64,000 nt of DNA, taken from contig NC_056001.1 of NCBI RefSeq assembly GCF_018446385.1, positions 12,270,672-12,334,671 on the forward strand, written 5' to 3'. Source of the stretch: Zingiber officinale. Lineage: Eukaryota > Streptophyta > Magnoliopsida > Zingiberales > Zingiberaceae. The number at the start of each line of letters is the position of its first letter. Position 1 is the stretch's first letter. The translations under genes and the position numbers were made by a program. This document shows positions 1 through 63,400 of this stretch, one piece after another. The notes below the pieces were generated by a model that was not told the DNA's origin, searched no databases, and saw only the letters and a program-made list of their open reading frames with translations.

Positions 1-1627
1 AGCTCACTTATAACTCGTGACCGAGGCGACCTACAAAGGTCGTTGGGCGTGAGCACGTGGCTCACTTATAATTCTCGATGGGAGCCGACCGAAGGTCGTT
101 GGGCGTGAGAGCAGAGCTCACTTATAACTCGCATTGAGGCGAGAGTCTGGATCACCGACCTGTAAGGTCGTTGGGCGTGAGCACAGGCTCACTTATAATT
201 CTCGATGGGACCCGAAAGGTCGTTGGGCGTGAGAGCAGAGCTCACTTATAACTCGACCGAGGTGAGAGTCTGGGACCACCGACCTAAAGGTCGTTGGGCG
301 TGAGCACAGGCTCACTTATAATTCTCGATGGGAGCCCGAAGGTCGTTGGGCGTGAGAGCGAGCTCACTTATAACTCGTGACCGAGGCGAGAGTTCTGGGA
401 CCACCGACCTAAAGGTCATGGCGTGAGCACAGTGGCTCACTTATATTTCTCAGATGGGAGCCGACCCAAAAGGTCGCTGGGCGAGAGCAGAGCTTACTTA
501 TAACTCGACCGAGGCGAGAGTTCTGGGACTACCGACCTAAGGTCGTTGGGCGTGAGCACAGGCTCACTTATAACTCGGCCGAACGGCTCGAGAATCTAGA
601 GGCTTCGCGCGAGAGCAAGCTCGCTTATAACTCGGCCAAACGACTCGAGAGTCTAGGACACTTAGGCATAAGGGCATGCTCACTTATAACTCGGTCGAAC
701 AACTCGAGAGTCTGGAGGCTTCATGCGAGAGTAAGCTCGCTTATAACTCAGCCAAACGGCTCGAGAGTGTGGGATATTTAAGCTTGAGAACATGCTCACT
801 TATAACTCGGTCGAACGACTCGAGAGTCTGGAGGCTTCTCGCAAGAGCAATCTCGCTTATAACTCGACCAAACTACTCGATAGTATGGGACACTTAGTCA
901 TGAGGGCATGCTCATTATAACTCAGTTGATCAGCTCAAGAGTCTGGGACACTTGGCGTGAGGGCTTTGCTCGCTTATAACTCAGACGAATGACACGAGTC
1001 TAGAAGCTTCGCGCGAGAGCAAGCTCACTTATAATTCGGTCAAATGGCGCGAGAGTCTAGGTCGCTTGGGCGTGAGGCCATGCTCACTTATAACTCAGTC
1101 GACCAGGCTAAGAGTCTGGGACACTTGGCGCAAGGGTTTGGCTCACTTATAATTCCTCAATGACGGGAGAGTCTGGAAGCATTGCGCGAGAGCAGAGCTC
1201 ACTTATAACTCGCACTGAGGCGAGAGTCTGGGACTATCGACCTAAAAGGTCGTTGGGCGTGAGCACAGGGCTCACTTTTGATTCTCGCATGGGAGCCGAC
1301 CTGAAAGGTCGTTGGGCGTGAGAGCAGAGCTCACTTATAACTCGCACTGAGGCGAGAGTCTGGGACTACCGACCTAAAAGGTCGTTGGGCGTGAGCACAA
1401 GGCTCATTTATAATTCTCGCATGGGAGCCGACCTGAAAGGTCGTTGGGCGTGAGAGCAGAGCTCATTTATAACTCGCACTGAGGCGAGAGTCTGGGGCTA
1501 CCGACCTAAAAGGTCGTTGGGCGTGAGCACAGGGCTCACTTATAATTCTCGCATGGGAGCCGACCTGAAAGGTCGTTGGGCGTGAGAGTAGAGCTCACTT
1601 ATAACTCGCACTGAGGCGAGAGTCTGG
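1..1627. repeat. Tandem array, about 66-bp monomers, 132-bp dimer in the cleaner part
   Basis: From about 1196 the block starting agctcacttataactcg recurs exactly every 132 bp (1196, 1328, 1460, 1592). It consists of two related halves of about 66 bp. Each half holds one cttataa motif and one small hairpin of the form cgacctnnnaaggtcg. Between about 540 and 1190 the monomers are more diverged and carry ctcgagagtc boxes. The array lies in the gypsy element that occupies 1-6151. No protein is supported; open frames here are repeat artefacts. Confidence 0.9.
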
Positions 1628-1729
1628 GATACTCCGGTCCGAGACCGGTGGCGATGGCGCTGGTCCGAGACCAGTAATGATACTCCGGTCCGAGACCGGT
1701 GGCGATGGCGCTGGTCCGAGACCAGTAAT
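1628..1729. repeat. 51-bp tandem duplication with palindromic core
   Basis: Two near-identical 51-bp copies (1628-1678 and 1679-1729) each contain ggtccgagacc-type inverted repeats. They close the tandem array on its right side. Confidence 0.85.
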
Positions 1730-2423
1730 AACCCCCAAACGACAAAGGCCTAGATGCATCACTCTTCTTCGACTCCATCTGTGCCGCCTACGCCGGCCTC
1801 ATTGCTTTAGTTAATCTGGTCGCTATTGCTAGCTTTGGGCGTACTCATTTGTGTCGCGTTTCTTCCTGCAATTGCATTACGCACAGTATAGAATTAAGAA
1901 TGGAAGAGGGAGCGTAAAAACCCTTACCCCCTGGGCCACAGTGCCCTTGCATCTTATGGTGACCCCGCAGTCCTCGCGACGCGCCCGGTTAGCTGCTCAG
2001 ATCGGGGCTACCCACGCAGAGCTACTCACTCGGCCAATCTGCATGAGGAACACCCCCGCAGACCTGCTTGCTACTTTTCTGGTCTGGCAATCGCTTCTGC
2101 CGCCCCGTCTTACTTATGACCCTTTTGAATTTCTTGGCTTCTGCAGCTTCATGAAACTTCCCGCCTAGCCTTGAGCCTTTCACGAAGAATGCTTCTTTTT
2201 TGAGGCCACGCCCCTTCATGATTACCTTGCCTTGTCGACCTTTAATGTGTTCCTTCTCGCTATGACACCTGTCCGGCGCCTTTACTGCGCATGCCCCCTG
2301 ACGCCAGCATCTGACCCCCTTTTGCACCCTTCGACGCTTATCTCCCATCCGACGGCGTTGAGGCGCGTTACCCCAAAAAGATACTCGGCTCTATTCTCGA
2401 TGTTTCCTAGGAATAAATGAGCT

Positions 2424-2432
2424 TTATAAACC
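2424..2432 (+). promoter_or_regulatory. TATA-like box upstream of the antisense ORF
   Basis: The motif ctttataaac lies about 160 bp upstream of the ATG at 2588. The later gypsy element has an equivalent tataaag box upstream of its own antisense ORF, near 50209. The role is inferred from position and from the match between the two elements. Confidence 0.45.
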
Positions 2433-2587
2433 CTAAAGGCCGTCCGCTTTCCTTACTCTGACGCTTCGCCATCCCCCTCCTCTCGTTCGCAGTCATTTCT
2501 GGCAGTGCAACTCCTCGTTCCCCTGCTTGCGCCCGACCTGTGACCCCTTTCGTCTTCATTCCCCTCACCTGCTTGCTCCTCACAGCC

Positions 2588-2905
2588 ATGGATGGTAAGG
2601 ACCTCCTCTGGTATTCACATTACATTTCTGATTTAGACCACCACGACCTGTCTGCGCTGCAATCCAACCTGGGGGTAGGCCCGACATATGAGTTTCGCCT
2701 TCCTTCGACAGATGAACATCCTTCCTCCCCCCCGAAGAGTTTATTACTGTCTTTAAGGATCAAGTTTTAGGTGGTCTTCGCTTTCCTTTGCATCTTTTCT
2801 TCTCTGAGCTGAGTCAGTATTGCAATATTAGTATCTCTCAGTTTGCCCCGAACGTATTCCGAGCGATCTGCGGAACCATCATCTTGTGCCGCATTTACCA
2901 AATTC
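2588..2905 (+). pseudogene. Antisense extra ORF of the gypsy element, N-terminal remnant
   Basis: The translation from ATG 2588 resembles the start of the antisense ORF at 50456 in the second gypsy element. Both share a Y-x3 motif near the N-terminus, a PSPT/PSTDE-like stretch, and then a GGLRFP motif followed by an F-x3-L-x5-I-x5-Q segment. This matches plant proteins annotated as 'putative gypsy type transposon' (Transposase_28-like), known as extra ORFs in Tat-lineage elements. It is a truncated fossil that ends where the opposite-strand protease begins. Confidence 0.6.
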
Positions 2906-3464
2906 CCTTGACCTCCCCGACTTGCTCGCTGACCGGAAACTTGATCTTCTGATAGAAAGTAGAGACGGCAGCCCGGAACTCATGCAGAGCTGGCCTTCCC
3001 AGGATGACATTGTAGGAGGAAGGCAAATCCACCACAATGAAGGTGCTCCTCCGGGTGCGCACCAATGGCTCAGTGCCCATGGAAATGGCCAGGTTGATCT
3101 GACCCATGAGTTTGACTTCATTACCTGTAAACCCATACAAGGAAGTGGTTATAGGTTGGAGCTCCGCGGCGTCGATCTGCATCTCCTCGAACGCAGCTCT
3201 GAATAAAATGTTGACCAAGCTCCCGGTATCCACAAAGACCCGAGCCACTCGGCTGTTAGCAATAACGGCCTTGATTATGAGGGCGTCGTCGTGGGGCAGT
3301 TCCAGACCCTCCAGGTCTTGAGGCCTAAAGCTAATAACAGGACCGGAGGCCTGCTCGTGGCTGCATCCCACGGCTCCCACATACAACCGCCGAACGTGTG
3401 ACTTGCGGGTTAGGCCTGAGTCCCCGTCAGTGGGCCCTCCTGAGATGATACCGATCTCTCGCAC
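2895..3464 (-). pseudogene. Gypsy retropepsin-like aspartic protease region
   Basis: The minus-strand frame contains the retropepsin active-site motif FVDTGSLVNILF. A later YNVILGRPALHEFRA segment is typical of plant Ty3/gypsy protease domains. It lies downstream of gag in element order. It is part of the broken element; the polymerase domains that should follow are not present in the window. Confidence 0.85.
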
Positions 3465-3678
3465 AGCAACGTTGCCCCGGTTCTCCAGTTCTCCGGCATC
3501 CCTTCGGTCTTCCCCGAGGCCAGCTTGGTTAGATGGGCCGGCTAGGTTGGGCCGGGTCTACCGAGCATGCCCAGCTGCAGCCCGTTCTTCCTCCATTCTC
3601 TGTATTTGGGGCGCCAACGCCGGGGGAGGCAAGCCTTGCTCCGCAGCTCGTCTGGAGTCACGGGCGAATTGGAAGCAG

Positions 3679-4791
3679 TTACTGAGATCGTGCGTCCTGG
3701 ACCGATGATATGTGCAATATGGTGCCCCCCTTGGTCCAGGCCTGGGCGCGTGTACGGCGGCGACTCGCGGAGCTGGCCTGCTGAACGCGCTGGAAGGGCT
3801 GAGCTGGCTGCGGTGCTCTCCTTTCAGGTCGGTTGCCCGGAGCCACCGTCTTCTCGGCTTTCCGCCTAGCGGCCTGCGCTTCTTCCACCTTGATGTAGCA
3901 AGAAGCTTTCTCCACCATATCGTCGAAGCTTCGGGCGGGGTTTTTGATGAGGTCCCTGAAGAATTCCCCTTCTCGCAATCCGTGGGAGAAGACGCTCATC
4001 AATATTTCTGAGGTGGCGGAGGGGACGTCGTTGGCCACCCGACTGAACCGGTTGATGTAGCTTCGCAAGGGCTCAGTCGAATCCTGCTTGAGAGCAAAAA
4101 GACAGTGGTCGGTTTTTTGATACTTACGACTACTGCGAAACGGCGTAGGAAGGCCGTTTTGAAATCCATGAAGCGATTGATGGACTCTGGGGGCAATCCA
4201 TCAAACCACTTTTGTGCCGACCCGGACAGGGTGTGTAGGAACACTCGGCATTTGATAGCGTCGCTGTATTGATACAAGATAGCCGCGTTCTTGAACTTCC
4301 TCAGATGCTCTTCCGGGTCCTTGCTCCCGTCGTATTCTCCGATGTTCGGGGCTCGGTACCCCTTGGGTAGGCTTTCCCTCAGGATCTGAGCCGAGAAGGG
4401 TACCTTGTCATCCGGATCTTCAGGTAGATCTCTGGTAGGGATCATAGCTTTTCCCTTTCCTGAATCCCGAGGCGGATGTAGAGAGCTTTCCGCCATCGAC
4501 GCCGGCGGCTCCTCTTTCTTTGGACTGTGCTCACGGGGTTCAACTCGATGATAGTTGCGGCGAGGCTCCCGGAAAGAGGCACGGGGGGGGTTCTTCCGGC
4601 TGCTTCCTCTTCGAGCCCCTGTCGGAGGCAGGAGCTGGTTCTTTGGACACTTCAGGTGCTAGGCGGGGACGTGAAACTGTTCCTTGCTTCTCAGAGGCGG
4701 CTTGCTTTCTAACCTCCTTGAAGAGCTCGTACTCCTCCGCGGTCATGGTTACGTTGATCCTCCTGCTAGAGCTTCGACCAGAGTCCTCCAT
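3679..4791 (-). pseudogene. Gypsy gag region
   Basis: A gag reading frame begins at 4791, just inside the primer binding site, with MEDSGRSSSRR. It continues with a retrotransposon-gag core (GSAQKWFDGLPPESI, around 4150-4200) and an R-rich tail with an EFFRDLIKNPA-type segment. The order gag then protease on the minus strand fits Ty3/gypsy. It is a fossil with a few breaks. Confidence 0.8.
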
Positions 4792-4822
4792 CTTCACGCT
4801 CCGAAACAGGTTGTTGTGTTCC

Positions 4823-4840
4823 CACAGACGGCGCCAAATT
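4823..4840 (-). other. Primer binding site
   Basis: The minus strand reads TGGCGCCGTCTGTGGG a few bases inside the LTR edge. The same sequence is found at the matching place of the second gypsy element (59153-59170). Confidence 0.8.
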
Positions 4841-6151
4841 TGATCTCGTCCGGAGGCTGAGTCGGACGGAGGCTGGTCGAGGTGTCCCGATGGTTGACGG
4901 AAGGTCGTAGAAGATGACTCGGCTCCCACGGGTGGCTGACGCTGCCGCAGGACCCTACGCACACTCAGACGATCTCCCCCTTCACGTTAGAGACCAAAAC
5001 CCAGGGAAAAAGTCCCCGGATCAGGCCCACCGACGCTTAAGTCAGGTCCTTTTTCCCCAGAAAAAAGCAGAGAGAAGAATAAGAAAAAACAGTTGTGGGA
5101 AAAAAGTGACGAGGGAGTGTGTGCGCGTACCGGCATACGAGGGATTTCTCGCCTTTTATGCCTCCTCCTTTTGGAACCTGCCATCCTGTCAGAAAAAACG
5201 TTAGACGCTGGGCTTTGTCGCCTCCTTCCGGACACCTGTCGTACTGCCATTTGTTGTGCAAGCATCTTTCCGTCTTGGAACCTCCGCCTTCGTACATGGA
5301 TTTTGTCTTGTAGTGGGGGGCAGGTGGCAGGCTACTACTGGTTATGAGGGCATCTTTTTGTTTTAGGAATCTCCGCTTTCATCCGCAGTGTTGATATGTA
5401 ATGACTCTCTTCGGCAGACCGTTGAGATTCTCCGCACCCGTGCTACTTAGCTCTTCCGATCCATTGTGTCCTGCATCGGCCTGCACCCGTGGTTCGCATT
5501 CCGGGCCTCCAACTCGCAGACCTGCAGCCCTAGCTGTCTAGACACAGCTACGCTGATCTTCAACCTGCATTCTGCGCTCTGTATTTCCTGGCCCTCAACC
5601 GCAGGTCTGTAGCTCGGGCTGCTTCTAATCAGCTCTGCAGCTTCTGATCAGCTCTGCCGCTTCCGACCCATTGGCCTATACTCTCAGTTCTTTGAGTCGC
5701 AGGCCTATAGATCGGACTTCCCCTAAACAGCCCTGCCGATGCCGACTTGTATCCTGCGCTTTGTACTTTATGGCCCTCAACCGCAGGTCTGTAGCTTGGG
5801 CTGCTTCTGATCAGCTCTGCCGCTTCCGACCCATTGGCCTATACTTCCAGTTCTTTGAATCACAAGCCGGTAGCTCAGCCTCCCTCTGGGCATCCTTGCC
5901 GATGCCGACCCGTGACTTGTGTTCTGCTTGACGTCTTTCCTCGTCTTCCGGCTGCTTTGCCCCCTTGATCGACCAGCTTGCCTGACCTCTGACTATCACA
6001 CCTGCTTGCCTTTAACCGCCCCGTCAGCCTGACCATTGATTGCCACATCACCTTGACTATTGACCACCACGTCCTCTTGACTTTTGACCGCCATATAGCC
6101 TTGACTTTTCTAACCCTTTCCTTATGGGCCCCTCCATTACCAACCGTATCA
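4841..6151 (-). repeat. LTR of the partial gypsy element
   Basis: The plus-strand view starts TGATCTCGTC beside the primer binding site and ends CCGTATCA, so the ends are TG...CA with a short inverted repeat. The length is about 1.3 kb. It contains an imperfect direct duplication of about 180 bp (around 5560-5745 and 5740-5925). The outer end rests on the TG/CA rule only. Confidence 0.65.
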
Positions 6152-7142: not shown

Positions 7143-8168
7143 TTACTTCAACAGATCGGAGATCCAATCAACGTCCGGCGTAGCCTCCGCCTTCTCAGAA
7201 CCTACTCCATCTTTGCTCAGCCTCTCCAACATCTTTGCTCTCAGCGCCCTACCGGACTCCACCCTCTCCGCCGCCGCTTCATCGTTCGACGTCCACCCAG
7301 TCGCGGCAGCAGCCAGAGTGGAAGGCGAGCTGTTAAAGCCAGCATTACCGAAGCAGGAAAGATCGTTCGCCCGTGGCGAGGCAAACCCACCGTGAAAATT
7401 ACAAGATCTCGCTGTCGACTTCCTCCCACTGAGCTGCAACTGCCCCATCGACGCCACGATCGCGTTCACCGGCGCGCCTGATTGCCACCACATCCTATGC
7501 AACTCCTCTTTGTTCGGCGAAATTGGCGGCGACTCCCTCGGCGAGGACATCAGCGGATAAGTACTCAGAATAGACGTCGGTGACGACTTTGAAAAAGAGG
7601 GCGAGCTCCTCTGCTTCGGTGACGGAGGCACGCGGAGCTGCTCCGGCGTGTGGGCGAAGAAGCATACGCGGCGGCGGCAAGCGGGACCGTCCTTGCAGGG
7701 TTGGGTCCGATAACGATCCGGATGGAGCCAGCACTCGAACACCCCGTGGGCGAACTCGCAGGAGTCGCCTCGCTCACACCCGCCGGCACCCTTACGGAAT
7801 GCCGGGCACCCGACGCCGGAGTAGCGGTGCACCCGGGGGTCGCGGCGGCGCGCCTTCTCCCCGGGGTGCGCGAAGGGGCACTCGGTCCAGTCGTGGTTGC
7901 GCCCGCGGCCACACCGCCGCACCTTGAATTCGTACATCCGGAAATCGTCCGACGCGTAGATCACGTCCCCCGAAGACAGCATCGCTACCGCGTGGCCCTC
8001 CTCCTCCTCCTCCTCCTCCTCCGCCTCCGCCTCCCTTCGCAACGCAGCGCCCGCGGTCTCATCGAAGTTCCCATCACAGCCGGGAACGGTGGCCCTAGGA
8101 TCGTCGAAGGGGAGCCAAGAAGGGATTTGAACCGTCGGACTGTGAGGAAGGATGCCATGTCTCATCAT
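7143..8168 (-). CDS. Arginine-rich tandem CCCH zinc-finger protein (RR-TZF)
   Basis: A 341-residue, intron-less gene on the minus strand. Plant RR-TZF proteins bind RNA, shuttle between nucleus and cytoplasmic granules, and act in hormone and stress responses and mRNA decay; this is family knowledge. The sequence shows an arginine-rich CHCH part (C86, H92, C97, H101) and two CCCH fingers (C121-C131-C137-H141 and C158-C164-C169-H173). The first finger has nine residues between its first two cysteines, slightly more than the usual seven or eight. The N-terminus ([15 protein letters not shown]) matches the AtTZF1/ATCTH subgroup. An acidic Glu run at about 48-57 is encoded by a CTC/CTT microsatellite. 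The C-terminal half is serine-rich and has an LQLSGRKS-type motif. The start is the first of two adjacent ATGs. Confidence 0.92.
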
Positions 8169-48958: not shown

Positions 48959-49836
48959 TGATCCTGTCTGAATCGTTGAACTAACGGACGCTGGGCACAT
49001 GGCGCTCTCCTAGTCGATGACGTAGGTCTCCTCCTGGTCGCACGAATCTCCGGCGAACCTGCACAGAAGTCGGGCCGGGGATCTAGTCTCCTCCTGGTCG
49101 CACGAATCTCCGGCGAACCTGTACAGAAGTCGGGCCGGGGAGATCCCCGACGACGACCCTCCGACGCTCAAGTCAGGCAAGGGGACAGATGAAAAAGGTG
49201 GCTGCAGGATGAAGACTGGCGTACCTCCGATGAAGAAATGAGAGGTCTTATATAGAGCACCCAAGGAACACCAAGCACCTACATCGGGAAGTCCACATAC
49301 CCTGGGCCATACCGCGGTATGGTCCTGTCAGGGGAGCATGTCTGAGGCCGCGGTACGGTCCTGTCAGGGGAGCATGTCTGAGGCCATACTCCTACAGTTT
49401 AGACCATTCCCCTGATGGGACGGTTAAACCTTTCTCCTCATGAATATAAATAATACCTAGCCATGGAGCATGTGGGCTTCTTCCTCCCGAGCCGAGAGCT
49501 CACCCGTCCGGCTGAAGCTCTTCTCCCGACCGAACATATGTGCCGGCCTGGCTTAGAAGACCTCTAGTGCTTGAACACCTTTTCCCCTGTTTCCCTGTGG
49601 AACGGCCAGGCGGTCTAATCGCTCAGCCTCTGCCTCCCTTCCCTGCCTCGGCCGGGCGTTCTTCCGCTCGGCCACTCGATTCCTTGCGTCGGAAACCCAA
49701 GCCCCTGGCCGGGTTATCTTTAGTTCCGCTCGGACCAGCCGGTCGGGCCAGGCCGTTACCCGATCGGCTTACCTTTGGATTAACCTTACCAAGGACCCTC
49801 CTTAAAGCGGGGCCCCCTCTTCTTAACACCGGATCA
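48959..49836 (-). repeat. LTR, left copy (3' LTR of the minus-strand element)
   Basis: TGATCC...GGATCA, 878 bp. It holds a 60-bp tandem duplication (49028-49087 and 49088-49147) that the other LTR lacks; apart from that the two are near identical. Confidence 0.92.
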
Positions 49837-49853
49837 CTTGCCTCCCCTTCAAG
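49837..49853 (-). other. Polypurine tract
   Basis: The minus strand reads CTTGAAGGGGAGGCAAG directly before the 3' LTR start TGATCC. Confidence 0.8.
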
Positions 49854-50207
49854 TCTAGCCGAAGGAGGCGCTTAAGTCCGACTGACTGGACTGTGTGTCC
49901 GAGCGGGTGCTCGTCGCCTTTTGTTTTAAAAGTATTCTACAGGCCGCTCGGTGTGTACGCCGAATTCAGCCGTTCGGCGCTTGCCTGTCCGAATCTCCTC
50001 GGGAACGGCGGCAATCCATTCCATTAAGGCTGCGCGTGCGTGGTATGGTGCACATTAAATGCGCCGAATCGCTCAGCGCCACGCGTCGACCATTGCGTGG
50101 TGGCGGCGTTACTTATGATGGGACGCCATCGTTTGAAATGGACGGCCCGATGGCGTCCTTGTTTCTCGTGACCTGGATCGGACGGCGGAGGCCGCCCGGC
50201 CTCGGCC

Positions 50208-50215
50208 GTATAAAG
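50208..50215 (+). promoter_or_regulatory. TATA box of the antisense ORF region
   Basis: cgtataaagcc lies about 250 bp upstream of the ATG at 50456 in a GC-rich setting, outside the LTR. It is matched in position by the box near 2424 in the other gypsy element. Confidence 0.5.
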
Positions 50216-50455
50216 CCTCAGTCCCCCTCCTCTGCCGCACGCTTGCTCGTGCTTTGTCCTTCTGCCTCTTCTGCTGCTGCGGCCTCCGGCGATCCAGTTC
50301 CTGTTTTTCGACGGCTACCATCTCACCGGTGATCTTTTTCGCCCGTCTCCTTCTTAGTGAGCCTTCTTTCTTCGTTTACTAGGTCTTCCCTACTCATTTT
50401 GCCTCTCTTTCGTTCCCATTCCTTCGATTTCTTGCTGTCCTTTTGTCTTTCCGAG

Positions 50456-52530
50456 ATGGCGAGCTCTTCCGAACCCGCTACCAACGTTCACGGTCCATGG
50501 TATACGACCATGGAGAGTCGGTTTGATGAGGAGGACGCTCGGCGTCTTGTTAGGACGTACGGGATCCCGGACGACCATAAAATCGAGATACCCTCCCCGA
50601 CCGGTCGTCCTCATGAACCGCCGCCCGACACTATTTGCTTCTTCTGGGACCAGTTCCTGGGCGGCCTTAGGTTTCCCCCTCATCCCTTTATTTTATTAGC
50701 TTGCAACTACTTCCGTATTCCGCTCGGCCAGCTTGTGCCGAACTCCTTTAGGCTGCTGAGCGGGGTGATCATCCTCTTCAAACTGAACAATATTCCTCTG
50801 GACCCAGCAATCTTTCACTTCTTCTTCTATCCCAAACAGTCCGAGTTGGGTACTTTTATTTTTCAAACTAGAGTAGGTTTTGTTTTGTTCCAAGACATGC
50901 CGAGTTCCAACAAGCATTGGAAGGAGCACTTCTTCTATATGCGCCTTCCCGAGCGGCCTGCCTTCCGAACCCAATGGCAGACTGCCGTGCCGACTCAGCG
51001 GAGCTCAGAAGATATAGGAGCAGCCCAGCGTTCCTCCATGCAGCCAGCCGCTTATCCGGTCAGCGGTACAAGATTGACAAGTTGCTCCTCGAGGGCGTAT
51101 TGTATATCTTCGGTCTTTCTCCCGTCCGAGCTAGCCTTCCCTGCAGGATGTGTAAGCACCTTTTTCACTCTTTTTACCTTTTTATCTAACTGATTTAATT
51201 TTTTCTCCTGCAGCCGAAGTTATGTGGCGCGCGAAGGCTACTGAGAGCCTAAAACTGAGGGCTGTGGAAATTGAAGCGGCCACTAAAAAAGAGCTTGCCG
51301 CGCGGGGCCTTATCCCAGCGCGCCCGGCAGCCGAAGGAGAAGGGGGAGCGCAATCCGCTCCTGAGCTGGAGGTCACTCAGTCTGCCTCAGCGGAGGTAGA
51401 AGTAGACCCTGTCTCTTCAGCTCCGGCCGAGCTGAGTGTCCATCAGGCTGATGCCGCCACCCTAGATACTCGGCGGAAACGCCCAAGGGACTTTACCCCA
51501 CGGCCCACTCAGAAGGGCAAGGCTACCGCGCCCGTGGAGGTCCTCTCCCCGGACAGAACCCCGGTGCAGGTCGAAACATCAACGGCTTTTGAAGTAGAGC
51601 CCACTGACTCTCCTCGGAGGACTCGCCGTCGCCTACGACGCTTAGGTGAGATTTCCCCTATAGGCGAGTCCTCAGGCCAGGCTACCGCAACCGAGGAAGA
51701 GCTGGCCGACCGTCCGGCCCTCAAGATTACCCTCCGACTTCCCTCGGAGGAATACTTGTTGGCTGCTGACCAACCTTCGAGCCCTGTCCACGAGATAACT
51801 CTGAAGGGTCCGCTAGCCAAGATCTTCGAGGATGCCCAGGTTCGGGCAGCTCTCATGACTCCGAAGCAGCTCGGGGACAGTAATATGCAACAGGCGACCG
51901 GGGTAAATTCCTTATTCTCCTTAATATATCACTTTGTATCTTAACTCGTTATTTCTTATGCAGCGCTGGGCCGAGCAGATCGCTATCAGCCACCGGTTGG
52001 CTGAGCTAGAGGATCTCCTGGCGAAACTCCAAGCCACTGGAGGTCCTTCGGCCGAGAAGGAAAAGCAGGCTTTCGAGGCTGAGCAGAAGAAGGTCTCCGA
52101 TCTGACTGCGGAGATGGCTCGGCTCGAGGGCCAAGTCAAGAAGCGCGAAGCGGACGCCAAACGCGCTACTACCCGGAAGAAGCAAGTGATCGCTGATCTG
52201 GACAAGATGAAAATAGATGTCCGTGCGCTAGATCAGCGATCCAAGGATCTGGAGGCCCAGCTGAACGTCGAGCGGGAGGGCCGTTCGGCAGAACGCACAA
52301 AGGCTGAGGTGGACTTGAAGGCAGTCCAAGATTCCTTAACCGCTTCCCGGGCGGTACTCAAAAAATATAAGGAGGGAGAGCCGAGTCGCCTAGCAGCAGC
52401 GCGCCAAGAATACCTCCGCTCGGAGCGATTCGACGAAAAATTCGGTGGCAACGTCTCCTCAACTTTTGTCGAGGCGGTCAAGGTCACCATGGCGTACTTG
52501 AAGAAGGGGGGCACCTTCCTGCTGACCTGA
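50456..52530 (+). pseudogene. Antisense ORF region of the gypsy element (Transposase_28-like, coiled coil)
   Basis: Three open segments on the strand opposite to the LTR/gag direction. The first (from ATG 50456) has the 'putative gypsy type transposon' core, with DDHKIEIPSPTGRP, FFWDQFLGGLRFP and PNSFRLLSGVIILF. The second (about 51214-51905) is a Pro/Glu/Ala-rich linker with basic RRTRRRLRRL. The third (51961-52530) is a long coiled coil (AELEDLLAKL..., KKREADAKRATTRKK) ending in a SERFDEKFGG...FVEAVKVTMAYL motif. GT/AG-type borders lie between the segments, so it may be transcribed and spliced; that is inference. Function is unknown. The copy has a small number of breaks. Confidence 0.7.
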
Positions 52531-52977
52531 GAATTCCCCCTTCAGATCTGGCGGCTATGATTGACGATATCCCGGACGCCTTTTTTTAATTTTGAGGACC
52601 CGGAGTGAGGCGAGTTCTTCCAAGTACTTTCTGTATTTCATCCGCTCGGCGGATGTAAAATTTTTGTACGTGCCGTTCGGCATAATTGTGTTCCTTTGCT
52701 TCTATTTTTGTTTGCCCTTCATTGCCCTCTTCTGTCTGTTTGGTGCTTATTCGTAGAGTCAATTAAGCTCCACGTGTTTCCCACTAGACGACCGATCAGG
52801 TTAATCAATTGACTCGTTTTCCTCGAAATCGTTTAGCGCTTGGCTATACTGTTTGCATTCAGTGAATGCGAAGTATTGGCAAACCGATGGCCGATCGGAC
52901 TTAATCAATTTAGTACTTGCGAACGCTCGTTATTTGGCGTCCTTAGTTCCGTCCAGTAAGTTCACAGTCGCGGGTTC
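52531..52977. other. Spacer between antisense ORF and tandem array
   Basis: A former 3' flank of the antisense ORF, moderately GC-rich, with scattered ccgatcggac boxes. No ORF supported. Confidence 0.5.
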
Positions 52978-55900
52978 GACTCTCGATCTTTAACGACGGG
53001 GCTCGTCGGAGTGGGGTATTTATAGCCGGTCGGCGCGGCTCTTGATCTTTAACGACGGAGCTCGTCGGTCTTCCGCTCGGACGTTTATAGACGCCGGCTC
53101 GTCTCTCGATATTTAACGTGGAGCTCGACGGCGCGGATATTTATAGCCGGTCGGCGCGGCTCTCGATATTTAACGTCGGAGCTCGTCGGTCTTCCGCTCG
53201 GACGTTTATAGACGCCGGCTCGTCTCTCGATATTTAACGTCGGAGCTCGACGACGCGGATATTTATAGCCGGTCGGCGCGGCTCTAGATCTTTAACGTCG
53301 AAGCTCGACGGCGCGGGTATTTATAGCCGGTCGGCGCAGCTCTCGATCTTTAACGACGGAGCTCGTCGATCTTCCGCTCGGACGTTTATAGACGCCGGCT
53401 CGTCTCTCGATATTTAACGTCGGAGCTCGACGGCGCGGATATTTATAGCCGGTCGGCGCGGCTCTAGATCGTTAACGACGGAGCTCGTCGGTCTTCCGCT
53501 CGGACGTTTATAGACGCCGGCTCGTCTCTCGATATTTAACGTCGGAGCTCGACGGCGCGGATATTTATAGCTGGTCGGCGCGGCTCTAGATCTTTAACGT
53601 CGGAGCTCGACTGCGCGGGTATTTATAGCCGGTCGGCGCGGCTCTCGATCTTTAACGACGGAGCTCGTCGTTCTTCCGCTCGGACGTTTATAGACGCCGG
53701 CTCGTCTCTCGATATTTAACGTCGGAGCTCGACGGGACGGATATTTATAGCCGGTTGGCGCGGCTCTAGATCTTTAACGACGGAGCTCGTCGGTCTTCCG
53801 CTCGGACGTTTATAGACGCCGGCTCGTCTCTCGATATTTAACGTCGGAGCTCGACGGCGCGGATATTTATAGTCGGTCGGCGCGGCTCTAGATCTTTAAC
53901 GTCGGAGCTCGACGGCGCGGGTATTTATAGCCGGTCGGCGCGGCTCTCGATCTTTAACGACGGAGCTCGTCGGTCTTCCGCTCGGACGTTTATAGACGCC
54001 GGCTCGTCTCTCGATATTTAACGTCGGAGCTCGACGGCGCGGATATTTATAGCCGGTCGGCGCGGCTCTAGATCTTTAACGTCGGAGCTCATCGGTCTTC
54101 CGCTCGGACGTTTATAGACGCCGGCTCGTCTCTCGATATTTAACGTCGGAGCTCGACGACGCGGATATTTATAGCCGGTCGGCGCGGCTCTAGATCTTTA
54201 ACGTCGGAGCTCGACGGCGCGGATATTTATAGCCGGTCGGCGCGGCTATAGATCTTTAACGTCGGAGCTCGACGGCGCGGGTATTTATAGCCGGTCGGCG
54301 CGGCTCTCGATCTTTAACGACGGAGCTCATCGATCTTCCGCTCGGATGTTTATAGACGCCGGCTCGTCTCTCGATATTTAACGTCGGAGCTCGACGGCGC
54401 GGATATTTATAGCCGGTCGGCGCGGCTCTAGATCTTTAACGTCGGAGCTCGACGGCGCGGGTATTTATAGCCGGTCGGCGCGGCTCTCGATCTTTAACGA
54501 CGGAGCTCGTCGGTCTTCCGCTCGGACGTTTATAGACGCCGGCTCGTCTCTCGATATTTAACGTCGGAGCTCGACGGCGCGGATATTTATAGCCGGTAGG
54601 CGCGGCTCTCGCTATTTAACGTCGGAACTCGTCGGTCTTCCGCTCGGACGTTTATAGACGCCGGCTCGTCTCTCGATATTTAACGTCGGAGCTCGACGAC
54701 GCGGATATTTATAGCCGGTCGGCGCGGCTCTAGATCTTTAACGTCGGCGCGGGTATTTATAGCCGGTCGGCGCAGCTCTCGATCTTTAACGACGGAGCTC
54801 GTCGATCTTCCGCTCGGACGTTTATAGACGCCGGCTCGTCTCTCGATATTTAACGTCGGAGCTCGACGGCGCGGATATTTATAGCCGGTCGGCGCGGCTC
54901 TAGATCGTTAACGACGGAGCTCGTCGGTCTTCCGCTCGGACGTTTATAGACGCCGGCTCGTCTCTCGATATTTAACGTCGGAGCTCGACGACGCGGATAT
55001 TTATAGCCGGTCGGCGCGGCTCTAGATCTTTAACGTCGGAGCTCGACGGCGCGGGTATTTATAGCCGGTCGGCGCGGCTCTCGATCTTTAACGACGGAGC
55101 TCGTCGTTCTTCCGCTCGGACGTTTATAGACGCCGGCTCGTCTCTCGATATTTAACGTCGGAGCTCGACGGGACGGATATTTATAGCCGGTTGGCGCGGC
55201 TCGAAATCTTTAACGACGGAGCTCGTCGGTCTTCCGCTCGGACGTTTATAGACGCCGGCTCGTCTCTCGATATTTAACGTCGGAGCTCGACGGCGCGGAT
55301 ATTTATAGTCGGTCGGCGCGGCTCTAGATCTTTAACGTCGGAGCTCGACGGCACGGGTATTTATAGCCGGTCGGCGCGGCTCTCGATCTTTAACGACGGA
55401 GCTCGTCGGTCTTCCGCTCGGACGTTTATAGACGCCGGCTCGTCTCTCGATATTTAACGTCGGAGCTCGACGGCGCGGATATTTATAGCCGGTCGGCGCG
55501 GCTCTAGATCTTTAACGTCGGAGCTCATCGGTCTTCCGCTCGGACGTTTATAGACGCCGGCTCGTCTCTCGATATTTAACGTCGGAGCTCGACGACGCGG
55601 ATATTTATAGCCGGTCGGCGCGGCTCTAGATCTTTAACGTCGGAGCTCGACGGCGCGGATATTTATAGCCGGTCGGCGCGGCTATAGATCTTTAACGTCG
55701 GAGCTCGACGGCGCGGGTATTTATAGCCGGTCGGCGCGGCTCTCGATCTTTAACGACGGAGCTCATCGATCTTCCGCTCGGATGTTTATAGATGCCGGCT
55801 CGTCTCTCGATATTTAACGTCGGAGCTCGACGGCGCGGATATTTATAGCCGGTCGGCGCGGCTCTAGATCTTTAACGTCGGAGCTCGTCGGCGCGGGTAT

Positions 55901-58262
55901 TTATAGCCGGTCGGCGCGGCTCTCGATCTTTAACGACGGAGCTCGTCGGTCTTCCGCTCGGACGTTTATAGACGCCGGCTCGTCTCTCGATATTTAACGT
56001 CGGAGCTCGACGGCGCGGATATTTATAGCCGGTAGGCGCGGCTCTCGCTATTTAACGTCGGAACTCGTCGGTCTTCCGCTCGGACGTTTATAGACGCCGG
56101 CTCGTCTCTCGATATTTAACGTCTGAGCTCGACGGCACGGATATTTATAGCCGGTCGGCGCGGCTCTAGATCTTTAACGTCGGAGCTCGATGGCGCGGGT
56201 ATTTATAGCCGGTCGGCGCGGCTCTCGATCTTTAACGACGGAGCTCGTCGGTCTTCCGCTCGGACGTTTATAGACGCCGGCTCGTCTCTCGATATTTAAC
56301 GTCGGAGCTCGACGGCGCGGATATTTATAGCCGGTCGGCGCGGCTCTAGATCTTTAACGACGGAGCTCGTCGGTCTTCCGCTCGGACGTTTCTAGACGCC
56401 GGCTCATCTCTCGATATTTAACGTCGGAGCTCGACGGCGCGGATATTTATAGCCAGTCGGCGCGGCTCTAGATCTTTAACGTCGGAGCTCGACGGCGCGG
56501 GTATTTATAGCTGGTCGGCGCGACTCTCGATCTTTAACGACGGAGCTCGTCGGTCTTCCGCTCGGACGTTTATAGACGCCGGCTCGTCTCTCGATATTTA
56601 ACGTCGGAGCTCGACGGCACGGATATTTATAGTCGGTCGGCGCGACTCTAGATCTTTAACGACGGAGCTCGTCGGTCTTCCGCTCGGACGTTTATACACG
56701 CCGGCTCGTCTCTCGATATTTAACGTCGGAGCTCGACGGCGCGGATATTTATAGTCGGTCGGCGCGGCTCTAGATCTTTAACGTTGGAGCTCGACAGCGC
56801 GGGTATTTATAGTCGGTCGGCGCGGCTCTCGATCTTTAACGACGGAGCTCGTCGGTCTTCCGCTCGGACGTTTATAGACGCCGGCTCGTCTCTCGATATT
56901 TAACGTCGGAGTTCGACGGTGCGGATATTTATAGCATGTCGGCACGGCTCTAGATCTTTAACGTCGGAGCTCGACGGCGCGGGTATTTATAGCCGGTCGG
57001 CGCGGCTCTCGATCTTTAACGACGGAGCTCGTCGATCTTCCGCTCGGACGTTTATAGACGCCGGCTCGTCTCTCGATATTTAACGTCGGAGCTCGACGGC
57101 ACGGATATTTATAGCCGGTCGGCGCGGCTCTAGATCTTTAACGTCGGAGCTCGACGGCGCGGGTATTTATAGCCGGTCGGCGCGACTCTCGATCTTTAAC
57201 GACGGAACTCGTCGGTCTTCCGCTCGGACGTTTATAGACGCCAGCTCGTCTCTCGATATTTAACGTCGGAGCTCGACGGCATGGATATTTATAGCCGGTC
57301 GGCGCGGCTCTCGATCTTTAACGACGGAGCTCGTCGGTCTTCCGCTCGGACGTTTATAGACGACGGCTCGTCTCTCGATATTTAACGTCGGAGCTCGACG
57401 GCGCGGATATTTATAGCCTGTCGGCGTGGCTCTAGATCTTTAACGTCGGAGCTCGACGGCGCGGATATTTATAGCCGGTTGGCGCGGCTCTAGATCTTTA
57501 ACGTCGGAGCCCGATGGCGCGGGTATTTATAGCCGGTCGGCGCGGCTCTCGATCTTTAACGACGGAGCTCGTCGGTCTTCCGCTCGGACGTTTATAGACG
57601 CCGGCTCGTCTCTCGATATTTAACGTCGGAGCTCGATGGCGCGGATATTTATAGCCGGTCGGCGCGGCTCTAGATCTTTAACGTCGGAGCTCGACGGCGC
57701 GGGTATTTATAGCTGGTCGGCGCGGCTCTCGATCTTTAACGACGGAGCTCTTCAGTCTTCCGCTCGGACGTTTATAGACGCCGGCTCGTCTCTCGATATT
57801 TAACGTCGGAGCTCGACGGCGCGGATATTTATAGCCGGTCGGCGCAGCTCTAGATCTTTAACGTCGGAGCTCGACGGCGCGAGTATTTATAACCGGTCGG
57901 CGCGGCTCTAGATCTTTAACGACGGAGTTCATCGGTCTTCCGCTCGGACGTTTATAGACGCCGGCTCGTCTCTCGATATTTAACGTCGGAGCTCGACGGC
58001 GCGGATATTTATAGCCGGTCGGCGCGGGTATTTATAGCCGGTCGGCGCGGCTCTCGATCTTTAACGACGGAGCTCTTCGGTCTTCCGCTCGAACGTTTAT
58101 AGACGTCGGCTCGTCTCTCGATATTTAACGTCGTAGCTCGACGGCGCGGATATTTATAGTCGGTCGGCGCGGCTCTAGATCTTTAACGTCGGAGCTCGAC
58201 GGCGCGGGTATTTATAGCCGGTCGGCGCGGCTCTCGATATTTAACGACGGAGCTCGTCGGCC
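52978..58262. repeat. 5.3-kb tandem array of 58- and 64-bp monomers with higher-order structure
   Basis: Three monomer types: two of 58 bp (starting ctctcgatattt or ctctagatcttt and ending tatttatagccggtcggcgcgg) and one of 64 bp (ctctcgatcttt...cgctcggacgtttatagacgccggctcgt). They combine as 58+58+64 = 180 bp or 58+64 = 122 bp blocks. A larger block of 1436 bp is duplicated: the rare variant ctctagatcgttaac is at 53462 and 54898, and ggtaggcgcgg is at 54595 and 56031. Nearly every monomer has CTATAAA on the minus strand. By length there are close to 90 monomers. Confidence 0.95.
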
Positions 58263-58378
58263 TTTTAAGGCTAACTCCTTACCAGGCCGAGCGACCTTGG
58301 CCTTCGTATCATATCCCGCGCTCGAACAATATTTATGCCCGGCCGAACAGGACGGGTCATTCGCTTACGAGTTTAAAT

Positions 58379-58549
58379 ATATAACCCTCCCGGCCGATCG
58401 GCTCGGGGGCCTTCGCTCTCGAGCTCCCAGCTCGGATATAACCCTCCCGGCCGATCGGCTCGGGGGCCTTCGCTCTCGAGCTCCCAGCTCGGATATAAAC
58501 CTCCCGGCCGATCGGCTCGGGGGCCTTCGCTCTCCGAGCGCTTGGCTCG
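58379..58549. repeat. 57-bp triplicate
   Basis: Three adjacent copies (starts at 58379, 58436, 58493) of a block containing ccggccgatcggctcggggg. They give a false repeated reading frame. Confidence 0.9.
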
Positions 58550-58836
58550 GATAATTTACCTCCAGCCGAACGGCTCGGGGCCTTCTTTATTGAGTCGGTG
58601 GCTCGGATCTTATACACCATGAAAATAGGCCGCTCGGCCGATAATGCCAATTGCGTTTTTTAACATTTTGCTTCCTACATTTCGAATATACAGCCAAACA
58701 GAAAATACACAGCATACTTTATATTGGCGCACCTTTCACCCTGCCCTGGAAAGGCTGGAGATAATGTGCGCTTCATGGTTGGTCCAAATCCCAATCCATC
58801 TTCATCCGCTCGACGGCCCGTCCACCGATCTTCCTC

Positions 58837-59127
58837 CTATGTGGTCAATTCATCGCTTGACATCAAACTCCCGCTCTTGAGGTTCCCGAAGAGGGGTTTG
58901 CTATAAGTTGAATTTGGGAGACGAAGTATCTGCTTTTGAGGGAAATGGGACTGTGGCAGTCGATGCTTCCGCTCGGCCCTCGGAGGCTGATGCCGCTTGT
59001 TGCTCAGCCGCTCGGCTTGCGCATTCTCTTTCCGTTGCTTCATGAGCTTAGCTGCTCTTGCCTTGATTAGAGCGTCGGGCTCCTTCGTGGAGAGCATTCT
59101 CGTGTGCGGTCGTCCAGCCTCGTCCAT
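58837..59127 (-). pseudogene. Gag N-terminal stub
   Basis: A minus-strand frame of 97 codons starts MDEAGRPHTRMLSTKEPDA just inside the primer binding site, at the same place and with similar composition as gag in the first gypsy element (4791). It ends before any gag core or zinc knuckle. It may be kept for packaging or as RNA structure; that is inference. Confidence 0.65.
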
Positions 59128-59152
59128 TGTTTCCGATCGGATGCAGGAGCGT

Positions 59153-59170
59153 TCCCACAGACGGCGCCAA
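59153..59170 (-). other. Primer binding site
   Basis: The minus strand reads TGGCGCCGTCTGTGGG two bases inside the LTR, identical in its core to the site at 4823-4840. Confidence 0.85.
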
Positions 59171-59172
59171 AT

Positions 59173-59995
59173 TGATCCTATCCGAATCACTGAACCAACG
59201 GACGCTGGGCACATGGCGCTCTCCTAGTCGATGACGTAGGTCTCCTCCTGGTCGCACGAATCTCCGGCGAACCTGCAAAGAAGTCGGGCCGGGGAGATCC
59301 CCGGCGATGACCCTCCGACGCTCAAGTCAGGCAAGGGGACAGATGAAGAAGGTGGCTGCAGGATGAAGACTGGCGTACCTCCGATGAAGAAATGAGAGGT
59401 CTTATATAGAGCACCCAAGGAACACCAAGCACCTACATCGGGAAGTCCACATACCCTGGGCCATACCGCGGTATGGTCCTGTCAGGGGAGCATGTCTGAG
59501 GCCGCGGTACGGTCCTGTCACGGGAGCATGTCTGAGGCCATACTCCTACAGTTTAGACCATTCCCCTGATGGGACGGTTAAACCTTTCTCCTCATGAATA
59601 TAAATAATACCTAGCCATGGAGCATGTGGGCTTCTTCCTCCCGAGCCGAGAGCTCACCCGCCCGGCTGAAGCTCTTCTCCCGACCGGACATATGTGCCGA
59701 CCTGGCTTAGAAGACCTCTAGTGCTTGAACACCTTTTCCCCTGTTTCCTTGTGGAACGGCCAGGCGGTCTAATCGCTCAGCCTCTGCCTCCCTTCCCTGC
59801 CTCGGCCGGGCGGTTCTTCCGCTCGGCCACTCGATTCCTTGCGTCAGAAACCCAAGCCCCTGGCCGGGTTATCTTTAGTTCTGCTCGGACCAGCCGGTCG
59901 GGTCAACCAGGCCGTTACCCGATCGGCTTACCTTTGGATTAACCTTACCAAGGACCCTCCTTAAAGTGGGGCCCCCTCTTCTTAACACCGGATCA
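59173..59995 (-). repeat. LTR, right copy (5' LTR of the minus-strand element)
   Basis: TGATCC...GGATCA, 823 bp, about 98% identical by eye to the left copy apart from the 60-bp duplication present only on the left. Confidence 0.92.
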
Positions 59996-60487
59996 CTTAA
60001 TAATTTTAAAAGTATAGTATATTGTTCTAAAGATTTTAAATGTAACCTAAACGGCTAAACTGAATCTTTTAATTATCTATCCAGATGTAAATTATAATAG
60101 AAGAGACAATAAATCCAGAAGAAAAAGATCCTAAAATCCGACCATAGTATAAATGCTCTGCCCTCGTTTTCAACTGCCCATAGAAACCCACTCCGCACGT
60201 CTGCACTCATCGTCACGCTCATCATCTGCGTGAATTTTACTCCGTCAGATTATTTTTAAAATAATTTCAGTAAAATTTAAACTGAATAAAATCTTCAATT
60301 CTTTCCACGACTAAAAATTTAAGGAAAAAAAAAATCAAAAGGTATCTCTTTTTATCGAATAATCCGCAAAGAGGCATTCTGAAACGTCCCGATCGAATGT
60401 TGGCGGTCCTGACGGCTCCGGCGATTGGACGTCGTGCCGACAGGCGACAGCACATCGCTGCCGCCATTGACGTCGTGGGCGGAGCCC
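59996..60487 (+). promoter_or_regulatory. Promoter and 5' UTR of the PLPB-type gene
   Basis: A TATAAAT box is at 60148-60154, 340 bp upstream of the chosen ATG. The gypsy LTR ends about 150 bp upstream of this box, so the element forms the distal promoter. Confidence 0.55.
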
Positions 60488-63400
60488 ATGGATCCCCCGC
60501 ACCGTCTTCTTATCGAGCAATCGCTCCCGGCTCGGTATTCCGAATGGGTCGTGGAGACGCTCGACGAGATCGAAGGTTGCTTCCTCATCACCGACCCTGG
60601 CATCGCCGACCATCCCATCGTGTTCGCCAGCCACGGTTTCCTGGTAATGTCCGGGTATTCCATCGAGGAGGTGCTCGGCCGGAACGGCCGGATCTTCCAG
60701 GGACTTGACACCGACAGGCGGTCTGTAATGGAGATTAGGGAGGCGATACGAGAGGAGCGGACGCTCCAGATTAGCTTGCTTAATTATAGGAAGGACGGGA
60801 CGCCGCATTGGATTCTTTTTCACCTCTTTCCGGTGTTTAGAGTGGAGGACATCAGGGTCGCGCACTTTGTGGCGGTCCAAGTGGAGATTCCCATGAGATC
60901 AAGGTGCTTGAGATCTTACGCGGAGCATAGGCATGGTGGAGGGACTGGAAGGTTGCTCGTGGCATGCCGGAATGAGTGCCAATCGGACTACAAATTGGGG
61001 TGTGACACTGTCGTGGAATCGTTTGTGGATGTCGACAATGGAGGCAATTTCTATTTCCTATTTCTTGCTATCTTTCATTCTTTTTCTTCCTATTTCTTGA
61101 ATCGATTACTGTAATGCTTGCTTCTTGGCAGTGCTATTATTACTGGTAGGCTGATCATAATGCTTTTTTGGACCTCTTCAGAGTTGTCATTTTCCCTTGT
61201 AGGATTGGAAGTCGAGGAATCACGCGAAGCAAGTGAGCAAGAGAAGGAGAAGGCGCACGATGCTGCCAACATCGTCCTTTCAACTCTTATTCACTACAGT
61301 CAGCTCACAGGCAGAGTTGTCAGCGACAAAAGATGCAGTGAGGGGGGCATTTCTGCTATCAATTCATCCCTTGTTATATCTCTTGGTAGAATCAAACAGA
61401 GTTTTGTACTGTGAGTTGTTATACACTCCTACTGATTGTTAATGTTAAGCAAATGTCATGGATGAGTTCTTAGACTAGATTCCTAGTTGAGATATACCTG
61501 TATTGGTACTAATAGAAAATTCCTTGGTATCTTGCAGGATTGATCCCCGGTTACCTCAGATGCCCATTGTCTATGCTAGTGACGAATTCTTAAGTCTGTC
61601 AGGTGCTCAATATTCTTATGTCTCTTTTGTATATATTATTTTATTGCTGAATGATGCATGAATTCTAGTTTCCCATAACTGTTTGATATTCTAGAATAGT
61701 GTTGCAAATGCAATTACTTAACCATACAACAGTTACCACGTATCCTGAAGTAGGGTAGTTGTTATGGAAGAGAATAAAGATATATAAAGTATGATTAAAA
61801 AGAAAAGTGAAATGCGGAAGTGTATCTAGAATTGTTGTGGAAAAAAGTATATTAATTGATAGTGAAGATAAAAACATTATATCAGTTTGTGCTTTTGCAT
61901 ATCACGGATGACACCCAACAAAAGTTGATTGTTTGTGCCTAATTTGAACAAACACAGTTGTATCTGTTGGATACCTGCTTCAGTATATGATGAATGATTT
62001 ATTTAGTCTAGGTTTCGAACTGACTCTTTGATGTGTGGTTGAATTGCTGAATGGGAAAAATTATATGTTTTGGTGCTATCCCATTATGTACTGTAAATGG
62101 TGAGAAAAGGCAAACAATACTAATTTATTGATTATTTTGTAGCAATAGTTGTTATATAATCGTTTTCCTTTGAAAAGATTTGAGTGAACATCAGTTCACT
62201 CTGAATTCATAAAGGAAGGAGAATTGAGTTACAGCTGATCCCTTTGGTAAAATCTGCCTCCCAAAAAACCTCATTACCCACAATAAACAATAGAACTATA
62301 ACTTGTGTAAAGAAATTGTGTCATGTAATGAACCCTACACAAGGAGAAAATTTACATAGGACCCATTGGACAAGTCCAGTTCCTTTATCTAACCATCTTC
62401 AGAAACTATATATGTGTAGCAGTAAGCATCAGAACACCAGCTTGATTTTTGTATCAAGTTCCCCCCTGATTCTGAGCAAGCTTTCAGAATTGGAGGGAGC
62501 TAACTCATCATCTTCAGCATTCATAGTGGGTGTTTTGGAAGCATTTTGTTTTCATCTTTGCCGCACCACTGAGGACCTTGTCCATTCAGCATTAAGAGCC
62601 AGCAGTCTTGATGTCAATACGAACCCTGGCTCAGCATCAGTCAGTATGGATAGTTTTCCAAATACCTGAATAAAAATTTCAGTGTCCATCTGCATCATAG
62701 ATGTTCAGTAACTATAACACTATAAGAAATCAGGACACCTGGCAACAAAATTTTAGCAGCATAGTGCTGGCATACACGTGACATTATCTGCAGTTAAACT
62801 TAATGAAAATATATGGAACCAGCATCAACCATCAGATGATCAGCTTCTGCATTCAGTTTCAGAAATCATCTTCCAATAAATAATCAGCAGGCAAATCAGA
62901 AAAATCAACATATATTATCTTTGATACAACTGAGCATTTTGGCCCATAAAATGTCACAAAGAAACCTTAACTCTATAGCAAACCAGAAAATCTAACATGA
63001 TATTAGATATCAGATACATGACATATTGCTCTGAAATCTTTTATGTTGTTTGATTTCACCATGTCAATAGGTTGTATGTGGTCCATGCACGACATGGATC
63101 TAAATGAGCTTGTTTTACTTCATGCCATGTGGGCCCTAGTCTTGCTTTGCCTCCTTGAGCTTTGGTTCAATTTGCCCCAATCTGAGTCATGCTGACTATA
63201 ATCAGAATCACACAAACTCTAGGACTTGTAAGCTAAGTCTGAGTGTGTTGTGTAGAAATCCCAAGATATAAAAAACTAAGAATTTTAAAACAAAAAAGGA
63301 GAAAATTCTTGGGCAATAAATTTTTTTAGCTGTTGAGGGAAAAAAATTTAAATGTCAAAAAATTCATTAAGGAACTGAGAATCAGGAAGAGTTTTGACTT

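Follow-up and report, generated by a model that had tools for sequence, protein, structure and literature searches.

An internal tandem array with an apparently constrained TATA-like core in a putative Retand-type retrotransposon of ginger

The window analysed here, a 64,000-nucleotide stretch of the ginger (Zingiber officinale) genome (assembly GCF_018446385.1, contig NC_056001.1, positions 12,270,672 to 12,334,671 of the forward strand), contains a long terminal repeat (LTR) element at about 48,959-59,995 and, within it, a long tandem array in which a CTATAAA box recurs. In sense order the element consists of an LTR, a leader open reading frame (ORF), a short array of 57-bp units, the main array, a gap of about 450 bp, a gene in antisense orientation and the other LTR (Table 1). 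Its sense strand appears to be the minus strand, as judged from a motif following one LTR and a purine tract preceding the other, which we take to be a primer binding site (PBS) and a polypurine tract (PPT), respectively. The LTRs, 823 and 878 bp long, show 17 differences at 822 aligned sites (Kimura two-parameter distance 0.021) and enclose an internal region of about 9.3 kb, in which arrays take up most of the stretch from the leader ORF to the antisense gene. The initial annotation had described some 90 TATA-like motifs in 58- or 64-bp units, on the sense strand of a retroelement, in GC-rich surroundings and between gag and an antisense ORF. Units, strand, setting and the antisense gene are as it described them; its gag is merely a leader ORF for which no Pfam match was obtained with the 95 residues scanned. 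Relatives of this ORF occur throughout the genome, a few of them in longer open frames.

The main array spans 5,283 bp with a G+C content of 57%. Its units can be delimited by 88 GTTAA anchors, and 83 of the 87 spacings between anchors are either 58 bp (51 times) or 64 bp (32 times), the others being single instances of 48, 57, 59 and 81 bp. CTATAAA is found 85 times on the minus strand of the array, TATAAA 87 times and TATAAATA 56 times; none of the three occurs on its plus strand. The whole window has 95 copies of CTATAAA, 85 of them at 53,019-58,217, every array copy being on the minus strand, versus a mean of 15.6 and a maximum of 27 in whole-window shuffles. The motif is thus in excess over shuffles, but since tandem repetition alone yields this, the comparison is an unfair test for a tandem repeat and no proof of function. 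The regular spacing of one box per unit, which had been taken as a sign of function, carries no weight either, because any satellite shows regular spacing; CGTTAAA and CCGCGCC (86 copies each) even precede CTATAAA among the commonest 7-mers of the array. The 58-bp unit consists of two approximate halves of 29 bp (about 60% match at period 29) and therefore has two AT cores, CTATAAA and GTTAAA, with spacings of 28 and 30 bp, which become 27 and 37 bp in the 64-bp units.

Two other roles for the array were rejected. The 59-aa frames it contains are a consequence of its 180-bp period and the frame of the core, compared by eye, varies among units, which does not agree with coding sequence. A 301-nt piece is not more structured as RNA than its shuffled versions (z 0.82 on the sense and 0.16 on the antisense strand), and an Rfam scan across the whole element gave zero matches.

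Conservation was studied in 798 units, 542 of the 58-bp type A and 256 of the 64-bp type B. They come from the window and from 38 further loci detected by a 301-bp probe of the array, a sampling that favours loci with conserved arrays. The other loci contribute 713 units; no units were removed for low identity, lengths below 50 or above 72 bp were left uncounted, and since units are not independent every p-value given here is rough. Exact TATAAA is present in 775 units and CTATAAA in 760. At the 38 other loci, CTATAAA ranks first among the 7-bp windows of both types (1/58 in type A, 99.4%; 1/64 in type B, 98.0%). Changes confined to one locus should be mostly recent and neutral. They strike A/T sites within the core about as often as those outside it, both in type A (5 in 6 core sites versus 13 in 17 others, 0.83 versus 0.76 per site; Fisher p 0.79) and in type B (7 in 6 versus 19 in 21, 1.17 versus 0.90 per site; Fisher p 0.64), hence the core is not simply less mutable. 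Variants common to at least three loci, on the other hand, are found at none of the 12 A/T sites in the type A and type B cores. Pooled with six further array-bearing loci, core A/T sites have 13 single-locus and no shared variants versus 29 and 30 at other A/T sites (Fisher 4e-4), a contrast weakened by its setting counts of changes against counts of variant types and best read as a rough guide. The type A core also shows a transversion deficit (p 0.02 versus all other sites, 0.04 versus other A/T). The initial annotation had asked whether CTATAAA surpasses the remainder of the unit in conservation; it does so at the 38 other loci and less clearly in the window itself. Mutation at the same pace as neighbouring positions, which the annotation named as contrary evidence, is seen in the single-locus changes and not in the shared variants; the motif does not just change in step with the positions around it.

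A second array, in part of another LTR element at the left end of the window, behaves more strikingly. Its family was sampled in the window and in 20 places from the list, 21 loci in all, which yield about 430 units compared by wraparound alignment. The core TTATAA is 97.8% conserved versus 79.4% at other A/T sites and 76.5% at G/C sites; elsewhere in the unit the overall identity is about 78%, and CTTATAA heads the ranking of 58 windows. All 21 arrays conserve the core (0.96-1.00 versus 0.73-0.82 for the rest). Transversions amount to 0.9% in the core, 7.4% at the remaining A/T positions and 4.4% at G/C positions (p 0.002 versus other A/T, 0.0003 versus all other sites), and because transversions too are rarer in the core, CpG decay does not account for its conservation. 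Homology of the two families was rejected, their similarity being weak (type A: score 28, same-strand p 0.066; type B: p 0.44). On what is probably the sense strand, TATAA[AG] is read in both conserved families.

The 57-bp array of the carrier element serves as a matched control. Its core is conserved at 81%, versus 85% at other A/T and 88% at G/C sites, in a set of 13 loci and about 121 units that held somewhat different 55-mers (L047, L053 and L054); without these three (10 loci, about 104 units) the core ranks 50/57, and in the six closest loci 45/57. As this array loses its AT core, an AT-rich run in such arrays is not automatically conserved.

Several results weigh against constraint on the cores. 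The window units alone rank CTATAAA only 3/58 and 25/64. Eight loci were hand-chosen, independently of the array probe, among 150 listed places of the antisense gene (plus-strand hits of varied identity); six have the array and CTATAAA, and in their 122 units the type A box ties for first with a window that holds TTAAA and the type B box ranks 12/64. The leading C of CTATAAA bears two shared variants in type A, and the type B transversion test is non-significant (p 0.08 versus all other sites, 0.20 versus other A/T). The second AT core, TTAAA, is almost as clean as CTATAAA, so the effect is not restricted to TATA. In the second family the contrast of shared and private variants reaches only p 0.07. 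Finally, two of the eight gene-picked loci have no array, and none of four loci picked by PF04195 (2.5 kb each; 4 of the 150 listed places) has a comparable one; the array is thus not required by every element with the antisense gene and is lineage-specific. Taken together, the CTATAAA box looks constrained, and the statistics point to retention of the core relative to other A/T sites that is modest in strength in the main family and strong in the second.

The array moves with its element. The same anatomy recurs at L009, L012, L014 and L019, where both LTRs were reached, and at L011, where the far LTR was not; the array sits between element parts in the window and wherever both flanks were recognised (L013 has no recognised flank), for which reason free genomic satellite DNA was rejected. 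Its length is partly explained by the duplication of a 1,436-bp internal segment. Array lengths at other loci differ greatly from that in the window, which exceeds all others among the 21 arrays that were read together with long flanks (the next, L022, has 3.0 kb; 18 further stretches were too short to judge). Duplication and length variation show that the array expands and contracts by duplication and deletion. L019 has, at its sense positions 1631-3480, a 57-bp array of about 32 units versus about 4 in the window, and the two arrays change length independently. In this assembly the insertion at 48959-59995 is hemizygous, since the homologous site on contig C15 (L055, C15:14441690-14441830) is empty; no target-site duplication was recognisable at the insertion. 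L010, L017 and L024 are mosaic, with a stretch beside the array that is 95-96% like that of the window and exons that are just 71-82% alike, possibly as a result of array-segment exchange between subfamilies.

Exon 1 of the antisense gene matches Transposase_28 (PF04195) by a narrow margin, with 26.4 bits (245 aa) or 26.9 bits (190 aa) versus a cut-off of 26.2. Using the first 182 codons of this exon, with gapped and stop codons skipped, the ratio of non-synonymous to synonymous substitution rates (dN/dS) is 0.13-0.59 throughout the 17 loci examined; nine of them, with dS 0.67-0.97, give 0.13-0.20, and eight with close copies give 0.18-0.59. The gene thus clearly evolves under purifying selection. 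In the window the last part of exon 1 is out of frame relative to 11 of the 17 relatives; open copies exist elsewhere. A single-sequence model of the domain was uninformative (mean pLDDT 34.9), and a search for relatives with solved structures gave one match only (E 0.081), which was not useful. Inspection of the ORF list by eye, in which ORFs were not all scanned individually, revealed no pol-like ORF in the carrier element.

These features resemble the Retand lineage of Ty3/gypsy LTR retrotransposons, for which Vicient 2025 (PMC11963269) reports that 97% of clusters have a Transposase_28 ORF in antisense orientation, together with tandem arrays, described as of unknown origin and function, in about half of recent elements, LTRs of 315-1,194 bp, internal regions of 7.4-12.9 kb and clusters without some gag-pol domains. 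The carrier element has the antisense gene in its 3' internal region, arrays, and LTR and internal sizes inside these ranges. It differs in having no reverse transcriptase, and therefore no phylogenetic placement, and in that its 5.3-kb array alone exceeds the average of 4.6 kb given there for the region from POL to the 3' LTR (PMC11963269). Based on the observed anatomy we place the carrier, by inference, among the non-autonomous LTR retrotransposons of Retand type.

Our preferred reading, to which we give a probability of roughly 0.5, is that this is an internal array of a non-autonomous Retand-type element, lying between the leader ORF and the 3' end of the antisense gene, with a sense-strand TATA-like core kept as a putative binding site. 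The core would be retained on the sense strand during element replication, other A/T sites drifting, and the likeliest reason would be that it forms a DNA-binding site repeated in cis. It is a more tentative proposal that Retand-type elements carry selected clusters of TATAA[AG] binding sites, each unit of about 58-64 bp contributing a single site, and that these are kept in two or more array families with little or no resemblance in sequence. If true, the arrays would be working cis elements read by the TATA-binding protein (TBP) or the Transposase_28 protein rather than by-products of recombination. As to the reader, host TATA-binding machinery on the sense strand might be the likeliest single candidate, the Transposase_28 protein encoded in antisense by the element itself being about as likely; neither is probable when taken singly.

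The strongest competitor, somewhat less probable than the preferred reading, is a passive satellite. Its founder unit would have contained CTATAAA by chance, and the box would have been copied by repetition and homogenisation, its conservation reflecting ancestry, the absence of CpG and exchange of arrays between elements. Other 7-mers of the unit are equally frequent and much of the unit is conserved as well: only 3-4 sites separate the majority 58-mer of the window from those of the nine loci with dS 0.67-0.97, which could be due to selection or to array-segment exchange between subfamilies, as the array-flank and exon identities at L010, L017 and L024 also suggest. Deletions do remove the core, core positions being included in 8-12 of 53 deletions of at least 5 bp. 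What passive copying does not predict is that core A/T sites carry no shared variants despite a normal rate of single-locus change, nor does it fit the transversion deficit of the second family or the lack of any comparable effect in the 57-bp array.

Two specific forms of the binding-site reading were considered, both rather unlikely and to a similar degree. In the first, the cores would form a cluster of sense-strand core promoters, putative TBP sites that spread transcription starts opposite the antisense gene. The TATAAATA copies on the sense strand of the array and the TATAA[AG] common to both families are consistent with it, as is the beginning of the next AT core about 30 bp downstream in 58-bp units. 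For a TATA-containing repeat of retroelement origin in maize, PMC3648361 describes three full-length cDNAs that begin 18, 40 and 43 nt downstream of the box. Against it stand the different spacing (37) in 64-bp units, the frequent transitions at C/G sites, which would suggest methylated, silent copies, and a downstream region in which no sense ORF containing a known domain was detected.

In the second form, the array would bind the antisense-coded Transposase_28 protein, giving a cis/trans pair that may act in packaging, nuclear transport or regulation. The domain is predicted to bind DNA (PMC11963269), and the antisense protein of maize Grande is nuclear and has its own promoter, as stated in the consulted part of Vicient and Casacuberta 2020 (PMC7264820). 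The gene adjoins the array and is under purifying selection even among close copies. Of three second-family loci with flanks read, L076 and L078 show a match to the antisense gene on the equivalent side, and L080, of which only the other flank was read, shows none. Published arrays are family-specific in sequence (PMC11963269, available text), which argues against this form, as do the four PF04195-picked loci, none of which shows an array, and L013 and L015, where the array is present and no antisense gene was detected within the 8 kb read. Moreover, the array of the left element in the window lies on the other side, across a truncated antisense ORF.

The least probable reading is that AT cores every 27-37 bp act on chromatin by excluding or phasing nucleosomes, or serve as breakpoints through which the array grows: three units make 180 bp, close to a plant nucleosome repeat, and the cores are embedded in GC-rich surroundings, but spacings of 28/30 and 27/37 bp hold no helical phase and the 57-bp array does not conserve its AT core. 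A recombination hot spot at the core was rejected, as recurrent indel ends fall at unit positions 13-19, 22-28, 36-44 and 46-51 and the core is at 29-35.

The kind of array and the kind of element are both already known; what was unexpected is the conserved core, which recurs in a second family. Arrays in the 3' regions of the related Ogre/Tat elements are described as a source of satellites (Vondrak et al., PMC7004042), and there too arrays of short units lie downstream of the coding part, also in non-autonomous copies without pol; in the ginger array the conservation of a TATA-like core was measured. The maize repeat CRM4TR (PMC3648361, accessible part) is also a tandem repeat of retroelement origin with a TATA box, but derives from the LTR and untranslated region of a centromeric element and has the LTR's own TATA, whereas the ginger array is internal and apart from the LTR. 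Predicted TATA boxes were also described in Allium centromere repeats (PMC7644871). The literature searched, which included few subscription journals, did not yield any description of Retand arrays with a conserved TATA-like core. A conserved core and a matched unconserved array in the same elements provide a concrete sequence for binding and transcription assays.

Table 1. Features of the carrier element and of the left-end element, in window coordinates.
Feature	Position	Strand	Remarks
5' LTR	59173..59995	-	TATA-like CTATATAAG at 59401-59409
PBS-like motif TGGCGCCGTCTGTGGGAAC	59151..59169	-	adjoins 5' LTR
Leader ORF, 96 aa	58840..59127	-	position of gag start; putative gag remnant
Short 57-bp tandem array	58379..58585	-	AT core unconserved; negative control
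Main tandem array, about 88 units (58-bp type A, 64-bp type B)	52980..58262	-	85 CTATAAA on presumed sense strand
Internal segmental duplication	53330-54730 and 54766-56166 (53330..56166)		offset 1,436 bp; 99.7% identical over best 700 bp
Antisense gene, three open exons (about 50456-51193, 51222-51944, 51964-52530)	50456..52530	+	Transposase_28 (PF04195) in exon 1; splice sites putative
TATAAA upstream of antisense gene	50209..50214	+	possibly its own promoter
PPT-like purine tract GAAGGGGAGGC	49840..49850	-	precedes 3' LTR in sense order
3' LTR	48959..49836	-	TATA-like CTATATAAG at 49247-49255; 60-bp tandem duplication at 49026-49141
Second LTR-element part	35-4990	-	gag, protease-like ORF, truncated antisense Transposase_28-like ORF, array
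Second array, units of about 59 bp	35-1629		TTATAA core strongly conserved

The gag of the second element matches PF03732 with 26.5 bits, and its protease-like ORF stays under its Pfam cut-off; the leader ORF of the carrier was compared with this gag start and a relationship was unsupported (E 0.10). Beyond the two elements, an ORF at 60425-61114 on the plus strand resembles a PAS/LOV domain protein, in which the stretch GRNGRIFQG, inspected by eye, seems to lack what we take to be the usual photoactive cysteine. A 341-aa ORF at 7143-8168 on the minus strand resembles, by eye, a plant CCCH zinc-finger protein.

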